Virus record (IMG/VR): IMGVR_UViG_3300037247_001116
Coordinates: 1-64,000 of that record
DNA: 64,000 bases
Strand: one strand, 5' to 3'
DNA from: a virus
Below are positions 2,879 through 41,776 of the stretch, in pieces (within the stretch, counting starts at the first letter, position 1; the number at the start of each line of letters is the position of its first letter). The position numbers and the translations under genes were made by a program. The notes below the pieces were generated by a model. That model did no database searches. It was not told where the DNA came from and worked only from the letters and a program-made list of their open reading frames with translations.

Positions 2879-3924
2879 TAGTCTTTATCCTCCCTGAAGC
2901 GAATCATTTCATAATCTGTTTCACATACGGGGTGTCTTGGAACATCTTTAGAACCTACCAACATTCCCTTATACTCGATCATTTTGCCTATATATGTGCT
3001 TCTAGTAGCCCATACATCCTCTTTTTCTTCATCAGTCATAGCTAGAGTCACTTTTAGCCTATACGGAGCGCCACAGTCACGACAAGTGTTTTCTTGTTTA
3101 ATAATCACCCCTGTTTGACCATCAGCAAGGCATTTATCACATAAAGCCTTGTATTCAACCTCAAATCCTGCCGCTTTTTCAATAAGAACGCGATCACCCA
3201 ATTTTTTGCTGGTAACGCTCCTCCCTAATTCATTAATCTTCTTTTCGGCATTAGGATCAACTTCTGTGGCTTGAACCACTCCTAAAATCTCAGCATCAAA
3301 AGTCACAAAAGGTTTCACTTTATAAATAAGCCCCTCTTTAATAGTGCCTCTACCACATTTATATCTCCCTTTTGGGTCTTTTAAAATAAGACCTTCATAA
3401 TCATTTTTTAATGCTTCTTCAAAATATTCTTCGACCTCTTCTTTAGAATTCACAGTGATTTGATTTACAGGAGATATTAAATTTGGATGTAGCTTTTGTA
3501 CCCTTTTTATTAAATCATTTCTAGCACTAAAATAGCAATCCATCAACATGCCTTCATCCACATAATCAAAACAATAAAACTTTAAGTCTTCTGGAATAGT
3601 TAATACTTCTCCATGTTTTTTAATTGTTTTTGGATCTTCAAAATCCTTCGTCATAACGAAACCTGTGATTTCTTGGAAAGTCAAATCGGGAGAATATATT
3701 TCTCCATCTAAAATAATATCATGTTCTCTTGAATAATCAACAAGAGGTTGCATTTTTTCTCTTAATTGTTTATTCTGTATTGGTTTTAAAGACCTTGAAA
3801 GCATTTCCCCTTTGATAAATAGACAGCGTATACCATCTAATTTATAAGAAGCAAGCAATGGATATTTTATTTCATCTAAATTTACTTTCTGATTTGGCGC
3901 AAGCATCGGTTTAAAAGTTTTCAT
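2878..3924 (-). CDS. ATP-dependent DNA ligase with zinc-finger insertion
   Basis: 348 aa; seals nicks using ATP through a lysyl-AMP intermediate. Seen: motif I YKLDGIR with Lys28, motif III LDGEIY (about 72-77), motif IV EGLILK (177-182), motif V YKVKPF (201-206), then the OB-fold domain. Odd: a four-Cys module (Cys262, 265, 281, 284) inside the C-terminal OB region, not part of the minimal phage ligases such as T7. It overlaps the primase gene by 4 nt (ATGA) and probably acts with it on lagging-strand fragments. Confidence 0.88.
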   Translation of the reverse strand: MKTFKPMLAPNQKVNLDEIKYPLLASYKLDGIRCLFIKGEMLSRSLKPIQNKQLREKMQPLVDYSREHDIILDGEIYSPDLTFQEITGFVMTKDFEDPKTIKKHGEVLTIPEDLKFYCFDYVDEGMLMDCYFSARNDLIKRVQKLHPNLISPVNQITVNSKEEVEEYFEEALKNDYEGLILKDPKGRYKCGRGTIKEGLIYKVKPFVTFDAEILGVVQATEVDPNAEKKINELGRSVTSKKLGDRVLIEKAAGFEVEYKALCDKCLADGQTGVIIKQENTCRDCGAPYRLKVTLAMTDEEKEDVWATRSTYIGKMIEYKGMLVGSKDVPRHPVCETDYEMIRFREDKD

Positions 3925-5789
3925 TTTCTTCCCTCGATTATTTTTGTGTCGTTTTCATAATGTGTTGGTAATGTCATAATCTGCCTACCAGTTTTTGAAT
4001 CTCTTATTTTTGATGTTAGAAAATATGTATTTTCACAGTCAACCCCATTATTCCCCCACAAATATTTACATACTAAAGAACCAAAACTTGCTACTTGGTC
4101 TGGTGCAAAGAATTTATTGTCTGTAGTTCTAATTTGGGTCATAACAATTAAAAACCCTTTATGAATTCTTAGTTGTTGTGCAAAATGGTCATATGTATTT
4201 TCTGTTTGTGTAAAATCTCCATCTTTCGGCTTCAACCAATCAATTACAGTTATTGCATTATCAACCAGTTCTACTTCTGTTGGATGTTTTACATTATGTT
4301 TTGGTACTAAATAAGCCTCATCGGGTATTTTTAAATGATGACAAATACGAGCTATACCACCATCGGCTTCTGTGTCAATTAAATGAGTCACACGTTTTTG
4401 CGCCCACAGTTGTTTAATAAAATTTCCTGTGATATGACTCTTGCCTCTTCCTGTTGGAGAGCCAATAATCAGTAACCCGCCTTGATTAAACCTTGCATAA
4501 TCATGAAAATATGGCATACGGAAATCTATCGGAACACCCATTTTGGCTTTATCAGCAACCCATTCGGCTTTCGTTAAGACCTGATATTTTCTCCCTCTTA
4601 ATGCCATTACTTTGTTATCATCTTCTAAATGTTTTAAAACATCTTCAATATCTTTTGTTTCTCTTTTCAATGACATAGCGATTTGATAGGCTGTACCTTC
4701 TTTGATAATTTCTAATCGTTTTAGTACATCAGAAGCCAATTCTTGTTTGTCATATGTTCGGTACTTTTTGAGTTGTCTTAAAATACCACTCATATCCTTT
4801 TTTGCCATTGGATTTTCAAGCATAGCATTAAAGTGGTATAAAGCCCAGGAAACTTGATCATCCGTACATTTCTTTCTAAGAATACCGCCATAGGTAATAA
4901 AAGTGTCGTTACAAACCCCGTCAAGACCTTTAATTCCCTCTGTAAAACTATTATTGTCAATTGATTCCTGAATTGTATCATCGACCGATTTCGTGTCATC
5001 CCCAATCAAATCTAAAAAGAATTTCTTCAATTCTTCAGGCATCTTCTTAATAGGTTTATTATTCCATTTTCTAATTTCTCCTTCTACCGACGTTGGTGCA
5101 ATTACAGTATAAGCATGGTTGCCTCTTAATTCCATATCATAAGGGGTCTTTTTGTTATGTCTGAAATTTTTATGAGTAATAATATCAAAATCTTTATCGT
5201 ATTTAAAAATCCAATGACGACCTCTTTTTGTTTCTTGAATTAAGGTATCTTCTCCTAATTTATCTTTCATTTTTTCATACGTGACATCACTATCAATATC
5301 AATTGCTATTACGCCACTGACTTCTCCTAATCGAATTGCTAGTCCATAGCCCCGATCCAGCCACTCTTTCCAAATTTTAGGATCTTTATGTTCTTTTTCT
5401 TCCCACATGAATCCACTAACAGGTCTTTTATCACCAGTGCCTGTTGGAAATAAGCAAAAACCCTGTTTGACATACATTTTAAAAATATCATCTATGTCAT
5501 CTTTAATTTCAATTTTATACTTGTGGGATAAATATGATGCAACGTCTTCATCAGAAAACTTGGGGTTTTTTAATGTTTTGACCAAATCAAAAATATCCCC
5601 TTTTTTGAAGGAGCATTTAGGATCATTACAATAAAATTTTGTGACGTTGTTTGGGTAAAGCTGTGCTTGTTCTTCCTTACATACAGGACAGGAGAATGTT
5701 TGTTTATCCCCTTTGATCTCAATACCTAATATCTCCTGCAAATACTGAATCAAATATTGATTGTACTGGTTTTTAATATACGCGTTCAT
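3921..5789 (-). CDS. bifunctional primase-polymerase / DnaB-type helicase
   Basis: 622 aa replicative primase-helicase. Domains in order: N-terminal zinc finger (Cys34, 37, 54, 59); archaeo-eukaryotic primase/PrimPol core with DxD in IAIDIDSD (Asp164, Asp166), RHWIFKY (His192) and the downstream ELRG...VIAPTS strand; a helical linker; and a RecA-fold ATPase with Walker A GSPTGRGKS near residue 445 and a Walker B-like segment IVMTQIR later. Primase and helicase on one chain allow self-sufficient fork opening and priming. Ligase follows, and a coiled-coil gene precedes with a 4 nt overlap. Confidence 0.82.
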   Translation of the reverse strand: MNAYIKNQYNQYLIQYLQEILGIEIKGDKQTFSCPVCKEEQAQLYPNNVTKFYCNDPKCSFKKGDIFDLVKTLKNPKFSDEDVASYLSHKYKIEIKDDIDDIFKMYVKQGFCLFPTGTGDKRPVSGFMWEEKEHKDPKIWKEWLDRGYGLAIRLGEVSGVIAIDIDSDVTYEKMKDKLGEDTLIQETKRGRHWIFKYDKDFDIITHKNFRHNKKTPYDMELRGNHAYTVIAPTSVEGEIRKWNNKPIKKMPEELKKFFLDLIGDDTKSVDDTIQESIDNNSFTEGIKGLDGVCNDTFITYGGILRKKCTDDQVSWALYHFNAMLENPMAKKDMSGILRQLKKYRTYDKQELASDVLKRLEIIKEGTAYQIAMSLKRETKDIEDVLKHLEDDNKVMALRGRKYQVLTKAEWVADKAKMGVPIDFRMPYFHDYARFNQGGLLIIGSPTGRGKSHITGNFIKQLWAQKRVTHLIDTEADGGIARICHHLKIPDEAYLVPKHNVKHPTEVELVDNAITVIDWLKPKDGDFTQTENTYDHFAQQLRIHKGFLIVMTQIRTTDNKFFAPDQVASFGSLVCKYLWGNNGVDCENTYFLTSKIRDSKTGRQIMTLPTHYENDTKIIEGRK

Positions 5790-5935
5790 AAAACCTCATT
5801 CTTTAAATCGTTTATTAAGTTACGAAGAAGTTTGTGTTTTAATTTTAAATCTTTTTGTTGTATTTTTATATCTTTAATTTCTTTTTCACACTTTTGTATC
5901 GATTCTATTCTACTTTCAATAGAGAATGATTTCAT
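5786..5935 (-). CDS. small coiled-coil protein, 49 aa
   Basis: Heptad-like pattern of Ile, Leu and Lys through most of its length. It overlaps the primase start by 4 nt and the end of the ClpP-like gene by 20 nt, so it is co-translated with both. Function unknown. Confidence 0.55.
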   Translation of the reverse strand: MKSFSIESRIESIQKCEKEIKDIKIQQKDLKLKHKLLRNLINDLKNEVL

Positions 5936-6485
5936 CCACTATCCCCTTTTCTAACATTTCATCGGCATATAAATATAAATCTTCACTATCAACTTTTTTG
6001 ATATCCGCTTCAGTTAATTTAGTATAAGTTCTTAGTTGATCATTGAATAATTTTTTATATTTTTTGATAAAATCATTGTGATTGTCCAATTGCGAACTGC
6101 CGCCCTCAAAATATGTTTTTAACTTATGGTCGAACCATACCGCGTCCTCATAACAGACTCTTTTATCTCCTGCAATTGAAATATGTGATGCTACGCTAGA
6201 TGCTTCGCCTGAAATGATTGTTACTACGGGAGATGAAATAATTTTCATAGTGTTTATAATTGATAAACCACAAGAACAACTTCCTCCTTCGCTATTAATA
6301 TATAACATAATAGGTTTGTTATTGAGAGTGTCTAGTGCAAACAATTCTTTGTTAATTCTTAGTGCTAATTCTTGCGTGACCTCTTCACAAATAAAAAGTT
6401 GCCTGTTGCCTAGAACCGTTAAATCGACATCAAATTCGTGTTTTATTAGGCTTCTTTTGTGTGCTGGTTTTCTTTTGGGTGACAT
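5916..6485 (-). CDS. divergent ClpP-like serine protease subunit
   Basis: 189 aa. The ClpP/crotonase fold is shown by PIMLYINSEGGS (strand and turn of the substrate groove), the nucleophile segment GEASSVAS (Ser97) and WFDHKL (His120); the third residue is probably Asp166 or Asp169. Family members assemble into barrels and need an AAA+ unfoldase for folded proteins. It departs strongly from the canonical phage ClpP at 31.8 kb and carries a basic 20-residue extension. It lies 2 nt downstream of an HslV-like gene, which suggests a joint role. It could instead act as a capsid-type or regulatory protease. Confidence 0.75.
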   Translation of the reverse strand: MSPKRKPAHKRSLIKHEFDVDLTVLGNRQLFICEEVTQELALRINKELFALDTLNNKPIMLYINSEGGSCSCGLSIINTMKIISSPVVTIISGEASSVASHISIAGDKRVCYEDAVWFDHKLKTYFEGGSSQLDNHNDFIKKYKKLFNDQLRTYTKLTEADIKKVDSEDLYLYADEMLEKGIVDEIILY

Positions 6486-6487
6486 AA

Positions 6488-7027
6488 TTAACCTTTCATT
6501 ATAACAAAAGGCGGTCTAACACCGCCACTAAATTTTACTGCTGTTTCTAATGCTTTCTTAATTATTGTTTCTGCCGATAGGTTTGTTGCTTCTAAAAGAC
6601 TTAAAGCTCCTTTTGCATAGTCAGATCCACATCCTACTGATTCAAAATTATAATATGATACGCCGACTTGTAAATCTCCTTCTAATTTATAGAGTCTTCT
6701 TTTATAACCTACCAAAAAAACCCCTATTCTTTCCGCGCTGTCTTTTATAGTGGCGAAAGCACCGTCTTTCAAACATTTTCTAACAGCATCAATAAAAAGA
6801 GTACACATGTATTCATAGTCGCTTATTTCCTCTGGTTGAGAAGGCACACTTAATTTAAATCGTAATAATTGCCCCATCCGAAAAGAAGAAGTGTAACCCA
6901 TAATAAACTTTCCATTACGAAAAACCTTTGCATCTTTTCTTGGCGTAATATGCAATCCTGCCACTCCTGCACTATCACCGCCGATATAAACTTTTTTGTT
7001 TTTTATATACCCAACAATGCAAGTCAT
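6488..7027 (-). CDS. HslV / proteasome beta-like threonine protease
   Basis: 179 aa Ntn-hydrolase. After removal of Met1 the chain starts with Thr. Counting that as Thr1, the proteasome catalytic residues fall at exactly the family positions: Asp17 in GGDSAG and Lys33 in KDAKVF. The later VGCGSDYAKGA matches the conserved GSG...A strand-helix of beta subunits. HslV normally forms dodecamers opened by HslU; no HslU-like gene is in the window. It is 2 nt upstream of the ClpP-like gene and 3 nt downstream of the 249-aa gene, so one transcript carries all three. Confidence 0.82.
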   Translation of the reverse strand: MTCIVGYIKNKKVYIGGDSAGVAGLHITPRKDAKVFRNGKFIMGYTSSFRMGQLLRFKLSVPSQPEEISDYEYMCTLFIDAVRKCLKDGAFATIKDSAERIGVFLVGYKRRLYKLEGDLQVGVSYYNFESVGCGSDYAKGALSLLEATNLSAETIIKKALETAVKFSGGVRPPFVIMKG

Positions 7028-7030
7028 AAT

Positions 7031-7780
7031 TTATTCCTTATTTTTTAAGTCTTGGATTAACTTATAAGAATGAGTCGCAATTTTAGTAATCATTGATAAA
7101 ACATCATCTGCCTTGCTGTCTTTATCAACTATAGAAGAAATAATGGTATATGCCGCTTTCATTGCCGCTTGTGCTTCGATTGAATTGCCAGTTCCTTTAT
7201 AAGTTTTCTTAGCACTACCAGTTTCTTTCCCTGTTTCTTTTTCTTCCTTTTTTTCCTCTACTTTTACAACATAACCTTTAATAACATCGTTGCCCTTCTC
7301 TTGTGGCAAAACTGTTATCTCTACTTCTTTGCCCGTGCATTCAGACTTGAATTTTTGAATCTCTATTGTGCTATCGAGATCATACCAAGTCTTTGTTTCT
7401 TTATCTTCTTTAAGTTTTACCCCGCCTTTTGCAGAAACACCAGCAATGGTTGATAATTTAACCACTAAGTCGCCAGACACATTTGGTTTTTCCGTATCTG
7501 GTTTCTCACCGCGACCATCTTCCTTTACGGGTTCTGCTTTGCCGTCAGACAGCTTCAACATCGTGATAGTACCTGATGACTCTCCTTCTTCGCCTGTTGC
7601 TGTTGATTCATCAATCTCGACATCAACGGTCTTATCTGCCAAGTCATCCCCAAGAAGCCCTTTTCCATCTAAAAACTTTGCAACTGCATCTGAAATATCA
7701 TATGTCTTATTTACTTTTTCCAACTTCAAAAATTTTTCGTCCTTCATTACCCACGAAACTACATCTGTTACTTTGCTCAT
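7031..7780 (-). CDS. uncharacterised acidic protein in replication operon
   Basis: 249 aa, not recognised. The N-terminal 150 residues are acidic and beta-rich, followed by a Lys/Glu linker (about 175-195) and a C-terminal helical part with SIEAQAAMKAA. Similar helical tails occur on some phage recombination or ssDNA-binding proteins, and the place between primase-helicase and 5' nuclease would fit an ssDNA-binding role, but no OB-fold motif can be read. It could equally be an adaptor or substrate for the protease pair downstream. Confidence 0.5.
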   Translation of the reverse strand: MSKVTDVVSWVMKDEKFLKLEKVNKTYDISDAVAKFLDGKGLLGDDLADKTVDVEIDESTATGEEGESSGTITMLKLSDGKAEPVKEDGRGEKPDTEKPNVSGDLVVKLSTIAGVSAKGGVKLKEDKETKTWYDLDSTIEIQKFKSECTGKEVEITVLPQEKGNDVIKGYVVKVEEKKEEKETGKETGSAKKTYKGTGNSIEAQAAMKAAYTIISSIVDKDSKADDVLSMITKIATHSYKLIQDLKNKE

Positions 7781-7794
7781 AACATCTCCTTATT

Positions 7795-8433
7795 TTAATA
7801 TTTATTAGCTTTTTTTAAATTATCTTCTTCCCATAAAGGTTGTAGATTGGTATAGTTAAAACATAATAATTGTTCTGATTTTTTACTCAAATCAAATAAC
7901 GCACATGGTTTGATATGGTCTACTACCCATCCGACTCTCCCATAGTTATCCCAACTCATTCCTTTAGTAAATTGGGATTGTAAATGATACATTAAATAAT
8001 CGGCTTCACACCCTATTAGAAACATTGTTGAAAGGGATTTTGTTTCTCCTTTTAAAGCATTGTATATTCTAGTTCTTAAATTCCCTTTCATTCTAAAATT
8101 CATATCATTCTGTCTGCGGTTTTTATTGACTTTAGACATTTTTTGCTTATCCCTACGGGCGTTGCGTATTTTAGCCTGTTTTGCTATTTTTACTTTATTA
8201 TTTTTATTCCATTCTTTTATCCGTTTTGTGATTTTTTCTTTATTATTATCTCTATATTCTTTATGTTGTTTAGAGATTTCTTCTTTATTTTCTTTATACC
8301 ATGTCTTTTGATATTCTTTAATACATTCTTGGCATGTGTTACGGCGATTATCATTGTCGGAACGAATAGAAAATTCGTTCATCAGTTTCTCTAATCCGCA
8401 ACCATATCTGCCTGTACATACTTTTGTTTTCAT
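7795..8433 (-). CDS. HNH homing-type endonuclease with N-terminal zinc ribbon
   Basis: 212 aa. An N-terminal Cys module (CTGRYGC...CQEC) is followed by a long Lys/Asn-rich linker and an HNH nuclease with VDHIKPC and YTNLQPLWEEDN. The last 95 residues are close to those of the HNH at 41.0-41.8 kb (both contain TMFLIGCE, DYLMYHLQ, MSWDNYG, VDHIKPCA), so the two are paralogues. I start at the ATG at 8433; the open frame extends to 8463 but overlaps the upstream gene. Free-standing mobile gene. Confidence 0.75.
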   Translation of the reverse strand: MKTKVCTGRYGCGLEKLMNEFSIRSDNDNRRNTCQECIKEYQKTWYKENKEEISKQHKEYRDNNKEKITKRIKEWNKNNKVKIAKQAKIRNARRDKQKMSKVNKNRRQNDMNFRMKGNLRTRIYNALKGETKSLSTMFLIGCEADYLMYHLQSQFTKGMSWDNYGRVGWVVDHIKPCALFDLSKKSEQLLCFNYTNLQPLWEEDNLKKANKY

Positions 8434-8437
8434 AATT

Positions 8438-8707
8438 TTAAATTTTGCAAATTGCTTGTTCAAGCAACTTGATCAATCCTTTTGCTTCATCTTTTGTGAT
8501 TGAACTAATACTATGAACATTTATCCATGTTTTGTTCGCATCAGCATTTGGATTAGTGTTCTTATTTGCTGGCTGAATCCTCAACTTCTTTTCGCCACCA
8601 TTATACTGATAAGCAATAACATTAAGGTATCTTTCCCCTCTTTCTTTTCCAACATTAACACCCTTCTTAAATAACTCTACATTTAACTTTGGGTCAAATT
8701 CACTCAT
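8438..8707 (-). CDS. hypothetical protein, possibly PC4-like
   Basis: 89 aa. The order RYLNVIAYQY, GGEKKLRIQP, then a C-terminal helix (KDEAKGLIKLLEQAI) recalls the small beta-sheet-plus-helix ssDNA-binding fold of PC4/YdbC proteins. This is a weak pattern judgement. The gene lies in the replication operon. Confidence 0.45.
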   Translation of the reverse strand: MSEFDPKLNVELFKKGVNVGKERGERYLNVIAYQYNGGEKKLRIQPANKNTNPNADANKTWINVHSISSITKDEAKGLIKLLEQAICKI

Positions 8708-31815: not shown

Positions 31816-32412
31816 ATGCAAGAAAAGAATTATTTAGTTCCAATGGTTATTGAGAAGACACAAAACGGAGAGAGGTCATATGATATTTATTCCAGACTTT
31901 TAAAAGACAGGATTATTTTTCTTGGCACACAGGTTAATGATGATGTTGCAAATCTTATTATTGCTCAATTACTTTTTCTACAGGGCGATGATGCCAATAA
32001 GCCAATCAGTATGTATATTAATTCACCAGGAGGGGTTATTACCGCAGGGATGGCTATTTACGACACCATGCAGTTTATTAAACCGCCTGTCAACACTTAC
32101 TGTCTTGGTCAATGTGCAAGTATGGGCGCGTTACTTTTAACTGCTGGCGCAAAAGGCGGAAGGTTTGCACTTCCTTATTCTCGCATTATGATTCACCAGC
32201 CATCAGGCGGTACAGGAGGGCAAGAAACAGACATTCAGATTCAGGCGAAGGAAATAGCTAGAATGAAAAAAGAATTAACTCAAATAATTGCAAATCGTAG
32301 CGGTCAAAAATTTGCCAAGGTAGCAAAGGATTGTGAAAGAGATTATTTTATGTCAGCACAGGAAGCAAAAGATTATGGGCTAATCGATGAAGTGCTTGGA
32401 AAAAAATTGTAA
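31816..32412 (+). CDS. clpP: ClpP protease proteolytic subunit, canonical
   Basis: 198 aa, near the length of bacterial ClpP. Catalytic triad Ser102 (GQCASMGA), His127 (IMIHQPSGG) and Asp176 (CERDYFMSA); all three are offset by 5 from E. coli Ser97/His122/Asp171. The handle region and YINSPGG are intact. It could assemble alone or mix with host ClpP and use host ClpX or ClpA. AAAGGAATAAT precedes the ATG. No Clp ATPase in the window. Confidence 0.92.
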
Positions 32413-32824: not shown

Positions 32825-33427
32825 ATGATAGTTAAAACCTTAAAAGAGCTTTATAGTATTTTTCACAAATTAGAGGAAACCTTTTTTGACAAACCTCTTG
32901 AAGAACCTGTGATTCTTATCCAATCAACCAAGAGAAAGATCCTTGGCACTTGTTCGGTTCATAAAGTGTGGGATAATAAAAATGATGATAAGAAATCGAA
33001 ATACGAAATCACTGTTGTTGCGGAAAGTCTAAACAGACCAACTGAAGAAATTGTCGAAACTCTTTTACATGAAATGATCCATCTTTATTGCTCTCTTAAC
33101 GATATTAAAGACACTTCAAACAATTTTGTGTATCATAACAAAAAATATAAGGAAGAAGCAGAAAAGAGAGGCTTAGAGGTTTCTCATGCAAAAACAATCG
33201 GTCACGCAATTACAACATTAAAACCAGAAACGATTGCTACAATAAAATCGTATGGCATTGATGAATCTGCTTTTGAATATTATCGCAAGCCCTTCTTTGG
33301 TACACCAGGGAAGAAAGTTGTTTATATTAAATATGAATGCCCCGAGTGTGGTATTAAATTGTCTACTTATAAATTGTTAAATCTTATGTGCGGCGATTGT
33401 AAGAAGCAGTTGGAAGTGAGGGAATAA
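32825..33427 (+). CDS. SprT-like zinc metalloprotease
   Basis: 200 aa. LLHEMIHLY is the HExxH zinc site (His82, Glu83, His86) with a third ligand at YHNKKYK (His104); a C-terminal zinc ribbon CPECG...CGDC follows. SprT/Spartan proteins in cells cut proteins crosslinked to DNA; phage copies are common and uncharacterised. It is the fourth kind of peptidase fold in the window. Confidence 0.72.
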   Translation: MIVKTLKELYSIFHKLEETFFDKPLEEPVILIQSTKRKILGTCSVHKVWDNKNDDKKSKYEITVVAESLNRPTEEIVETLLHEMIHLYCSLNDIKDTSNNFVYHNKKYKEEAEKRGLEVSHAKTIGHAITTLKPETIATIKSYGIDESAFEYYRKPFFGTPGKKVVYIKYECPECGIKLSTYKLLNLMCGDCKKQLEVRE

Positions 33428-35827: not shown

Positions 35828-36450
35828 AATTAGTTATCATCTCAGACACTCATAGACAGGAAAATAAGGTCATTTTACCAGAAGGGGATATACTCATTCA
35901 TGCTGGTGACTTCGACATTTATGATCAAAATAATTTAGATACTGTTATTGATTGGTTTAAAAAATTGGACTATAATCATATTATTTTTACAGGTGGTAAT
36001 CATGATAAATATTTACAACACTTTTCTTCTGACGAAATAAATAAACAGTTACCTTCTAACATTCACTATTTAATGAACGATAGTGTTGTAGTGAACAATA
36101 TAAAATTTTGGGGAAGCCCTTATTCTCCCGCTTTCGGTCAAGGTTGGGCGTATAACGCTTTTATTGATGAACTTAGAGAAAAATGGGCGACTATCCCTTC
36201 TGATACAGATATTGTTATAAGCCACTGTAATTGTTTTGGTATTAATGATGTGGTTAGAGGTATTAGCCAGGGCTGTCCTGCCCTTCGGGATAGAATAAAA
36301 GAAATTAAACCTAAATTACATGTTTCAGGACACATACATCCTGGTTATGGAGTTTATCAAGATAAAAACACTATATATGTTAATGCTAGTATTTTAGATG
36401 ATTTTTACCAAATTGCGAATAAACCCATTATAATAAATTATGAAAACTAA
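35824..36450 (+). CDS. metallophosphoesterase 2
   Basis: 208 aa. ISDTHRQ, IHAGDF, GGNHDKY, SHCNCF and SGHIHPGYG are the metal-binding motifs. This version is closer to the cellular YfcE/MPPED-type single-domain enzymes than the one upstream. Substrate unknown. Confidence 0.82.
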   Translation: MKLVIISDTHRQENKVILPEGDILIHAGDFDIYDQNNLDTVIDWFKKLDYNHIIFTGGNHDKYLQHFSSDEINKQLPSNIHYLMNDSVVVNNIKFWGSPYSPAFGQGWAYNAFIDELREKWATIPSDTDIVISHCNCFGINDVVRGISQGCPALRDRIKEIKPKLHVSGHIHPGYGVYQDKNTIYVNASILDDFYQIANKPIIINYEN

Positions 36451-37063
36451 AATTTGTACAAAATGCAGGTGTGAAAAATTATTATCTGAATTTTCTAAAG
36501 ACAAAAATAGAAAAGATAACAGACATCCTTATTGTAAATTATGTCAATCTCAGTATCATAAGAATCGTAAAGATGACAGAAAATTTTATAATGATAAGAA
36601 TAGGATAAAACTTGCATTTCAGCAAAGAAATTATATTAAAAGAAATCCTTGGATGACAAGTTATACTTCTGCAAAACAACGATGTACAAATCCAAAAAAT
36701 GAAAAATACCATAGATATGGCGGAAGAGATATAAAATTTCTTTTAACAATTGATGAAATTAAACATTTGTGGTTTAGAGATAAAGCATATAATTTGAAGA
36801 AAGCATCGATTGATAGAGAAGACAACGATGGCGATTATATATTGCAAAACTGTCATTTTATTGAACATTCTATAAATAGCCAAAAAGATCAAGATATGCG
36901 TGTTATTAAACAATTTAATCTACAAGGAAAATTTATAAGAGAATGGGAAAGTATTAGCGAAGCTGGTAGACAATTATTTACATCACCAGCTAATATTGTA
37001 GGTGTTTTAAAAGGATATCAAAAGACAGCAAAAGGATTTAAATGGGAATACAAAAATGAATAA
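36440..37063 (+). CDS. HNH-type homing endonuclease with zinc ribbon and NUMOD1
   Basis: 207 aa. N-terminal CTKCRCEK...CKLC, then SAKQRCTNP, YHRYGGRDIKF, LWFRDKA and SIDREDNDGDYILQNCHFIE, the phage HNH pattern built on an IDR.D..G.Y..NC core, then a NUMOD1-like C-terminus (SISEAGRQL, FKWEY). Paralogue of the gene at 38.2-38.8 kb. Begins inside the end of the previous gene. Confidence 0.7.
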   Translation: MKTKICTKCRCEKLLSEFSKDKNRKDNRHPYCKLCQSQYHKNRKDDRKFYNDKNRIKLAFQQRNYIKRNPWMTSYTSAKQRCTNPKNEKYHRYGGRDIKFLLTIDEIKHLWFRDKAYNLKKASIDREDNDGDYILQNCHFIEHSINSQKDQDMRVIKQFNLQGKFIREWESISEAGRQLFTSPANIVGVLKGYQKTAKGFKWEYKNE

Positions 37064-37749: not shown

Positions 37750-38241
37750 ATGAAATTTAAAGTTTTTTCTAGGATAGAATTCGAAGAGTTCATACCCCAT
37801 GAACCGTTCATTGCTATATCTATTACAGATCCAAATTCAGAGATTGTACAACCTCAAAATCCCCCACATGCAATACTATCTCTTGAATTTCATGATGCAG
37901 ATAAAAGATGTAAAAGAGAAGATTGTAAGATGTGCGCTGGCACTGGTAAAATAGAAAGATTTAAAGACATAAATAATGGAAATTGTTATAGCTGTTCTGA
38001 TCAGATGGTTGTTAATCTTTTTACTGAAAAAGACGCAGAGAATATTTTAGATTTTGTAGCTGTATATAAAGATTTTGTTGATTTAATCGTGGTACATTGT
38101 GAGGTCGGCATTAGCCGTTCCGCAGGAGTAACGGCGGCACTATCTTTTATTTTAAATGGAACTGACCAGTATTATTTTGATAACTATATTCCCAACATGC
38201 TGTGTTACAGAAAGATACTAAATGCTCATTACAATTCTTAA
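37750..38241 (+). CDS. Cys-based protein phosphatase with Cys-rich insertion
   Basis: 163 aa. VVHCEVGISRSAG is the P-loop of tyrosine/dual-specificity phosphatases (Cys117, Arg123). AILSLEFHDAD upstream corresponds to the acid-loop region and DAENILDFV to the helix before the P-loop. Between them (about 54-82) is an insertion with Cys54, Cys59, CKMC, GTGK and CYSC, resembling a DnaJ-type zinc module. GGAGG upstream. Targets unknown. Confidence 0.75.
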   Translation: MKFKVFSRIEFEEFIPHEPFIAISITDPNSEIVQPQNPPHAILSLEFHDADKRCKREDCKMCAGTGKIERFKDINNGNCYSCSDQMVVNLFTEKDAENILDFVAVYKDFVDLIVVHCEVGISRSAGVTAALSFILNGTDQYYFDNYIPNMLCYRKILNAHYNS

Positions 38242-38782
38242 AGTTTGTTCTAAATGCAAAAAAGATAAATCGTTTTCTGAATTTCATAAAGATAAAAATA
38301 GAAAAGACGGACATTATTGTATTTGTAAACAATGTATTTTAGATTATAAAAAGAAATATCCTTGGAAAACAGTATTTCGATCAATAAAAACTCGGTGTAA
38401 TAGCCCGAAATATATCAATTATAAAGATTATGGCGGTAGAGGAATAGAATGTAGGATAACCGAAAATGAACTCAAAGAGTTGTGGTTTAGAGATAAAGCC
38501 TGGCTACTAAACAGACCAAGCATTGATAGGAAGAACGATGATGGCGATTATGAGTTTTCTAATTGTCAGTTTATCGAATTGAAAGATAATGTTTCTAAAC
38601 GTAACACAAAATTTTTATCTTTACAAATTCTACAATATTCAAAAACTAAGGAACTTATTAAAAAATGGAACAGTATTAGAGAAGCAAGCCGAACATTGAA
38701 TGTAGATAATGCTGATATCACAAAATGTGCAAAAGGTAGAGTAAAATCCGCAGGTGGTTATATTTGGAGGTATTTTAAATGA
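38222..38782 (+). CDS. HNH-type homing endonuclease with zinc ribbon and NUMOD1
   Basis: 186 aa. CSKCKKDKSFSEF...CKQC ribbon, SIKTRCNSP, YKDYGGRGIE, LWFRDKA, SIDRKNDDGDYEFSNCQFIE and a NUMOD1-like end (SIREASRTL). Same architecture as the 36.4-kb protein. It starts inside the phosphatase gene (20 nt overlap), a typical sign of insertion. Confidence 0.7.
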   Translation: MLITILKVCSKCKKDKSFSEFHKDKNRKDGHYCICKQCILDYKKKYPWKTVFRSIKTRCNSPKYINYKDYGGRGIECRITENELKELWFRDKAWLLNRPSIDRKNDDGDYEFSNCQFIELKDNVSKRNTKFLSLQILQYSKTKELIKKWNSIREASRTLNVDNADITKCAKGRVKSAGGYIWRYFK

Positions 38783-40223: not shown

Positions 40224-41015
40224 ATGTGGACTGAAGCAGATTTAAACAAAGAAATAAAGAGAATCAGCCATTTGGTTCAAAACAAGGATAGGTCTGAAGA
40301 AGATCTTTTTCCTTTAGCCAAGATAAATATGATGGTTAGAGATTTTAAGTCCAATTCTCTTTTCACTGATGCTTCGGAACAAGATCTGGCAATAGAAAAG
40401 TTTCGTAGCTATTTGACCAATAATGAAATTGAGTCCAATTCTGATCTTGATACATTGAGATCTCTTATTTTTAACGAAGTGCTTGAATCAAGAATTCAGA
40501 AACAATTTAATAAATTAGCAGAAGAAAAGAAATACCCAACCGATAAACTTATCAAATCACTTGTTGACATTCAGGATCAAAAAAGTGCGCTAAAAATAAA
40601 ACTTGGTATTGATAAGAAAGCAGATGAAGTCGATGATTTAAGTGCTTATCAACTTTTACATAAAAGAGTAGATAAATATGTGAATGACCACAAAGATGAG
40701 TTCACTATAGGTTTGGGCTTTGAATGCGAAAAATGCTCCCACCAAAATTGGGAAACATTTCTGCTTTATAAAAGAGTCAAAGATTTTAAGATGATCAAGC
40801 ATGGTTGGTTTGCAGGTCGTTTTCTTTTCAACTATGAACTAATGCTAGATGTCAAAAACAAAAAGATTTCGAAAGAACAGGCGACACGCTATTTAATGTG
40901 TAGCGGTCAGGGTAAATTTTATCGACCTCAAGCCGAAGACAAAAAATGGTGCAACGACTACGTTGATTATTTATTAGAAAATTGGCTTGAAATAACAGAA
41001 TTGTTACCGAAATAA
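40224..41015 (+). CDS. candidate terminase small subunit
   Basis: 263 aa. First gene of the structural run, separated from the large terminase only by a mobile HNH gene, the usual place for the DNA-recognition subunit. Helical N-terminal half with charged coiled segments, then a zinc-ribbon-like CEKCSHQNW and a C-terminal part rich in Tyr/Trp. No family match by eye, so the call rests on position. AAGGAT precedes the ATG. Confidence 0.5.
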   Translation: MWTEADLNKEIKRISHLVQNKDRSEEDLFPLAKINMMVRDFKSNSLFTDASEQDLAIEKFRSYLTNNEIESNSDLDTLRSLIFNEVLESRIQKQFNKLAEEKKYPTDKLIKSLVDIQDQKSALKIKLGIDKKADEVDDLSAYQLLHKRVDKYVNDHKDEFTIGLGFECEKCSHQNWETFLLYKRVKDFKMIKHGWFAGRFLFNYELMLDVKNKKISKEQATRYLMCSGQGKFYRPQAEDKKWCNDYVDYLLENWLEITELLPK

Positions 41016-41776
41016 TGCAAAATAAAACTTGTACAAAATGTAATGATGAAAAAGAGATTTCTGAATTCAACAAACAATGTTCTCACAAAGACGGTCATAG
41101 GTCTGCTTGCAAAAAGTGTATGAGAGAATATAGAGATAACAATAAAGAAAAAATCAAAAAGCAACAACAAACCTATCATATAAATAACAAAGAATATGTG
41201 TCACAAAAACAGAGTCGGTATAGAGAAATAAACAAAGAAAAAATTTCTAAACAGAAACAATTGTTTTCTAAAAATAATTCTGAAAAAATAAAAATTCGTG
41301 GGCAAAATTATTATTTAAAAAATAAATCTATAATTAATAAAAAATCCAAAGATTATTATTTAAAAAATAAAGGAAAACTTTTAGATTATCAATCGAATTA
41401 TAACAAGAATAATCGAGAAACAATTTCGCAATATCAGAAACATTGGCAAAAATTAAAAAGAGATACTGATATTTCTTTTAAACTCAAATCAAATTTAAGA
41501 ACTAGAATTCATCATGCGATTGAGGGCAACATCAAATCTCTCAGAACAATGTTTCTTATTGGTTGTGAGGTTGATTATCTCATGTATCATCTTCAAGAAC
41601 AATTTCAACCTGGCATGTCTTGGGATAATTATGGCGATTGGCATGTAGACCACATCAAACCATGTGCAAGATTTGATTTAAGCAAACCCGAAGAACAACT
41701 AAAATGTTTTCGCTACACAAATCTTCAGCCCCTGTGGTCTGAAGATAATTTAAGAAAAGGCTCAAAATATGCGTGA
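41015..41776 (+). CDS. HNH endonuclease with zinc ribbon beside the terminase
   Basis: 253 aa. CTKCNDEKEISEF...CKKC ribbon, a long Lys/Asn/Tyr-rich linker, then HNH with WHVDHIKPCARFDL and YTNLQPLWSEDN. Paralogue of the 7.8-kb HNH. HNH genes next to terL can take part in packaging, or it may simply have been inserted between the terminase subunits. Overlaps terL by 8 nt. Confidence 0.78.
   Translation: MQNKTCTKCNDEKEISEFNKQCSHKDGHRSACKKCMREYRDNNKEKIKKQQQTYHINNKEYVSQKQSRYREINKEKISKQKQLFSKNNSEKIKIRGQNYYLKNKSIINKKSKDYYLKNKGKLLDYQSNYNKNNRETISQYQKHWQKLKRDTDISFKLKSNLRTRIHHAIEGNIKSLRTMFLIGCEVDYLMYHLQEQFQPGMSWDNYGDWHVDHIKPCARFDLSKPEEQLKCFRYTNLQPLWSEDNLRKGSKYA

Follow-up and report, generated by a model that had tools for sequence, protein, structure and literature searches.

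Adjacent proteasome-like and divergent ClpP genes in a 103-kb phage, and their comparison with known phage proteases

Self-compartmentalising proteases of phages have already been noticed in surveys, where their function was only proposed. The group I proteasome homologues AAH, PPH, CPH and BPH were described by Fuchs, Alva and Lupas (2021, PMC8665760), and some of them are phage-borne. Phage ClpP and SprT-like peptidases have been suggested to act on host proteins, and BCS1-type AAA+ ATPases have been noted in jumbo phages (Iyer et al. 2021, PMC7824862). In Alteromonas phage V22, a proteasome-like protein is encoded together with a Clp protease (PMC7289586). Here we analysed a 64,000-nucleotide stretch of viral DNA (hereafter the window), which forms the first part of an IMG/VR record of 102,658 bp (G000, IMGVR_UViG_3300037247_001116; G+C 33%) from a phage of ~103 kb.

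Within the window, a gene for a proteasome-beta/HslV-like protein (positions 6488-7027, minus strand, 179 aa) is followed on the same strand by a gene for a divergent ClpP, here termed ClpP-B (5916-6485, minus strand, 189 aa), with 2 nt between them (6486-6487). The coordinates, the spacing and a Pfam match all agree with the sequence-only reading, which had reported a diverged ClpP-like gene 2 nt after the proteasome-like one. Shine-Dalgarno-like sequences precede both genes. At the junction (ATG AAA GGT TAA TT ATG), the last three proteasome-like codons (ATG AAA GGT, 6491-6499, minus strand) can be read as supplying the Shine-Dalgarno-like AAAGG of ClpP-B, and because this ribosome-binding site lies inside the end of the upstream gene, the two genes may be translationally coupled. 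The gap itself is normal for this genome: co-directional neighbours are separated by a median of 1 nt, and by 4 nt or less in 77 of 178 cases. In genomes this dense, the fact that two genes adjoin says little about whether they share a function, as the survey below also shows. A hairpin at 6510-6526, close to where the proteasome-like gene ends, did not exceed shuffled expectation. Elsewhere in the window lie dispersed, mutually similar HNH/endonuclease VII-like genes (7795-8463, 36440-37063, 38222-38782 and 41015-41776) that are probably homing endonucleases. The record also holds, outside the window, a BCS1-type AAA+ ATPase gene (74454-75659, minus strand; L009:10454-11659), whose product has mitochondrial BCS1 as its top PDB match (E 1e-43), and a group of glycosyltransferase genes with a LicD domain and a short-chain dehydrogenase (77467-83114, L009), possibly for surface or DNA modification.

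The assignment of the first gene to the proteasome-beta/HslV type, with Thr1, Asp17 and Lys33 at the family positions, was borne out. In an alignment of the window copy with 79 IMG/VR loci, T2, D18 and K34 (counting the Met) are present in all 80 sequences, and G21, R30, D32, G44, S48, R50, G132 and G134 are likewise invariant. While a Pfam search with this ORF gave no match, it matched PHROG 1040 ('peptidase HslV family', E=1.4e-20), and comparison with PDB sequences gave weak HslV matches (E=0.011). The AlphaFold2 monomer model (pLDDT 93, pTM 0.89) has the expected beta-sheet sandwich with flanking helices, and Foldseek placed it in the proteasome/HslV/BPH fold (E 3e-11). The best solved match was BPH (5ovs/5ovt, TM 0.82), followed by HslV (~0.72) and proteasome subunits. 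No AAA_2 ATPase of the HslU/ClpX/ClpA type was found in the 102,658-bp record, which may be incomplete; together with the better match to BPH than to HslV, this fits an unfoldase-independent ring, and host HslU is a possible partner. Relatives are common: 208 INPHARED records and, from one pattern, 363 IMG/VR stretches were retrieved. The family, PHROG 1040, is thus one already described from phages (among the group I homologues of Fuchs et al. 2021). In the INPHARED loci of Vibrio phage R16F (L006, 6001-6989) and Aeromonas phage 2L372X (L141), two consecutive genes carry the annotation nucleophile aminohydrolase or HslV family, which may point to proteasome-like subunits that are split or in tandem.

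ClpP-B matches the Pfam CLP_protease family (PF00574) over residues 19-187 with E=3e-31 and 109 bits against a cut-off of 20.2. Its active site had been read as a Ser97/His120 pair; both residues stand, but Asp169 completes a triad, as S97/H122/D171 do in E. coli ClpP. Alignment to the E. coli protein showed that the N-terminal axial loop is absent, and that positions 44, 82, 92, 112 and 114 of the docking pocket are occupied by N, I, S, V and Y, respectively. Judged by these residues, ClpP-B appears to combine an intact catalytic site with the loss of much of what a Clp ATPase usually docks to. Alignment scans yielded only one close orthologue (41-42% identity), in the related phage IMGVR_UViG_3300005613_000028 (G006). 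Since a glutamate is aligned there at the catalytic aspartate, activity across the ClpP-B subfamily is not certain. Viral contig scans with a single protein query, either the proteasome-like protein or ClpP-B, found nothing, and a scan of genome contigs for the ClpP-B subfamily returned only ClpPs nearer to a second ClpP of the window, described below.

Upstream of the pair lies the ORF of a 249-aa protein (7031-7780, minus strand), to which no function is assigned and whose AlphaFold2 model has a pLDDT of 42; downstream lies a gene for a Prim-Pol primase/helicase-like protein (3921-5789, minus strand). The 249-aa ORF, taken in the sequence-only reading as an adjoining gene of the pair and a possible adaptor or substrate, proved real, with a positional homologue in G006. 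The genes there run exonuclease - RNase T-like exonuclease - 229-aa protein - ClpP-B - metallophosphoesterase - primase/helicase, an order similar to that of the window's replication module. The 229-aa and 249-aa proteins are 27% identical over their alignment and have a C-terminal NSIEAQxAxKxA motif in common, to which the BLASTP match (E=0.001) is confined. A neutral scan for relatives based on the primase recovered the same one phage. ClpP-B appears to have been retained within this module, its place being kept in one relative. The proposal that the two proteases mature a replication protein is speculative and has one observation in its favour, namely the place of ClpP-B between the 249-aa gene, or its positional homologue, and the primase in two phages. 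The proteasome-like protein of G006 is 53% identical to that of the window, and its gene lies ~27 kb from that of ClpP-B. In a tree of proteasome-like proteins, the grouping of the window and G006 copies as sisters was not settled (support 0.08).

To assess whether the pairing recurs, which the sequence-only reading had named as its own refuting test, the surroundings of the proteasome-like gene were surveyed in 94 other loci (79 from IMG/VR and 15 from INPHARED). Its contexts vary, and include terminase, portal and head genes, an HD hydrolase with an NAD-dependent ligase in large phages, and clusters of PhoH, ribonucleotide reductase and thymidylate synthase. A true ClpP adjoined it in none of these loci, and where present, true ClpPs lie 3-8 kb away; the two that were scanned bear the name head maturation protease. 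Only 2 of the 94 loci had a ClpP-superfamily gene within 0.5 kb, in both cases from another family, against a chance expectation of about 1 in 94, a rough estimate from their density in the same flanks. A candidate in Vibrio phage phiTY18 (L138, 5001-6537) was rejected as a recurrence, the neighbour being an S49/SohB peptidase 89 nt after the proteasome-like gene; an Asteriusvirus neighbour, with a weak Clp match only, was assigned as COG3904-like on the strength of a signal-peptide-like start and an SAC motif. At no fewer than eight IMG/VR loci (L018, L020, L023, L024, L042, L057, L062 and L065 among them), the gene for the terminase large subunit is immediately followed by the proteasome-like gene, for which a head-related role is possible there.

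The survey thus came close to the refuting outcome. Because no true ClpP neighbours the gene in the 94 loci and the two genes are apart in G006, the pairing appears to be lineage-specific. The analysis supported the two folds, the residues of the catalytic sites and the adjacency itself, but not the proposal that the two form one unit. The loss of adjacency rests on the single comparison with G006, the one syntenic relative found, and either gene order could be ancestral. Since the window phage and G006 both retain both genes, the two may yet be linked in function though not in position.

The window further encodes a second, canonical ClpP that is absent from the sequence-only reading (ClpP-A, 31816-32412, plus strand, 198 aa). 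It scores 279.8 bits against Pfam CLP_protease (E=1.3e-83), is ~60% identical to some bacterial ClpPs, and carries the full triad S102/H127/D176, the axial loop LVPMVIE and most docking-pocket residues as in E. coli. An RNA ligase gene adjoins it, and a gene for a SprT-like zinc metallopeptidase (32825-33427, plus strand) follows nearby. By its sequence, therefore, the phage is predicted to encode three barrel-type proteases: the proteasome-like protein, ClpP-A and ClpP-B.

How these proteins might be combined can be asked with the help of tandem ClpP pairs found in five large phages, all with a proteasome-like gene (G012, IMGVR_UViG_3300043177_000122, 153948-155098; also G017, G018, G028 and G043; loci L095-L099, L111-L115, L145 and L146). 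The first gene of each pair has the axial-loop sequence NTLVLEQT but Asp for Ser97 and Ser or Thr for His122, and is predicted to be ClpR-like and inactive; the second keeps Ser97 and His122 and has no axial loop. Our literature search found no paper on a phage ClpR/ClpP pair. As loop and catalytic residues are split in these pairs, it is plausible, by analogy, that ClpP-A and ClpP-B divide the labour between them. ClpP-A and ClpP-B could then be subunits of one hetero-tetradecamer, likened to the ClpP1P2 or ClpP/ClpR systems, in which ClpP-A would dock to a host Clp ATPase and ClpP-B would change cleavage, the proteasome-like protein standing apart. This arrangement is favoured by the distribution of parts, with loop, pocket and triad in ClpP-A and a triad without loop in ClpP-B, and by the tandem pairs; we nevertheless consider it unlikely, as the two genes are separated by 25 kb and lie on opposite strands, the proteins are only 27% identical, and the G006 record has ClpP-B with no ClpP-A found. 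Somewhat less probable again is a fuller scheme in which such a mixed ring would redirect the host Clp ATPase as a split-function core, ClpP-A docking and ClpP-B altering cleavage, while the BPH-like protease would serve as an independent, ATPase-free disposal chamber.

A head maturation protease is suggested by name, that being the name carried by the top PHROG matches of both ClpP-A and ClpP-B, and the structural genes that were scanned yielded no other recognisable head protease. Both genes, however, lie outside the structural block (~41.8-73.9 kb), ClpP-B accompanies replication genes in two phages and ClpP-A is close to cellular ClpP, so that this role is improbable for either protein. 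The sequence-only reading had envisaged a single co-assembled machine, built from the barrels of the proteasome-like protein and ClpP-B. In favour of it is the 2-nt junction, with the ribosome-binding site of one gene inside the other, but gaps of this kind are ordinary in this genome and the pairing is missing in G006 and in the 94 other neighbourhoods. No interface is known through which HslV/BPH rings and seven-fold ClpP rings would stack. We therefore regard such a machine as very improbable.

Taken together, these results favour a model, to which we assign a probability of about 0.72, in which the proteasome-like protein and ClpP-B work independently of each other as proteases of the phage, and their genes just happen to adjoin within a replication-module operon that is tightly packed and probably early. 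Under this model of independent proteases, the proteasome-like gene would be a mobile phage gene. Removal of the Met would expose Thr1 of its product, which would then probably assemble into a self-compartmentalised, BPH-like threonine peptidase ring that needs no HslU and whose targets during infection are small or unfolded proteins. As for ClpP-B, it would probably form its own ring, or share a mixed one with a docking-competent ClpP, either ClpP-A or that of the host. For each of these proteases, we infer the ring assembly, the substrates, the timing and any partner.

The genes are thus real, their folds correct and their adjacency unremarkable, and their families were already known; for a phage of 103 kb, a complement of three barrel-type proteases is mildly unusual. 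Modest in size, and combining a homologue of the proteasome with both a canonical ClpP and one that lacks docking parts, this phage would offer a compact test system, suited to asking what phages gain from degradation chambers of their own. The window protein shares with the group I homologues (PMC8665760) the proteasome-beta fold, the Thr/Asp/Lys triad and the lack of a propeptide beyond Met, and is placed at the level of the group, with its model nearest to BPH, whereas PPH has only ~140 aa against its 179 aa. With HslV (ClpQ) it shares the Thr-Asp-Lys spacing, a similar length and the MT start, but it scores far under the curated NCBIfam HslV cut-offs (24.9 bits against 137 for NF003964 and 22 against 157.75 for TIGR03692), its fold match to HslV is below that to BPH, and no HslU was found in the record. 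Both ClpP-A and ClpP-B resemble ClpP (PF00574) in their full-length match and Ser/His/Asp triad, although ClpP-B departs from the usual protein in its missing axial loop and several changed docking-pocket residues. The presence of both protease kinds within one phage is not new, since Alteromonas phage V22 and Asteriusvirus ph0011 have both. In V22, however, the two genes are CDS-113 and CDS-147 (PMC7289586), and in ph0011 the ClpP gene lies 6.2 kb from the proteasome-like one, whereas in the window phage the proteasome-like and ClpP-B genes adjoin.
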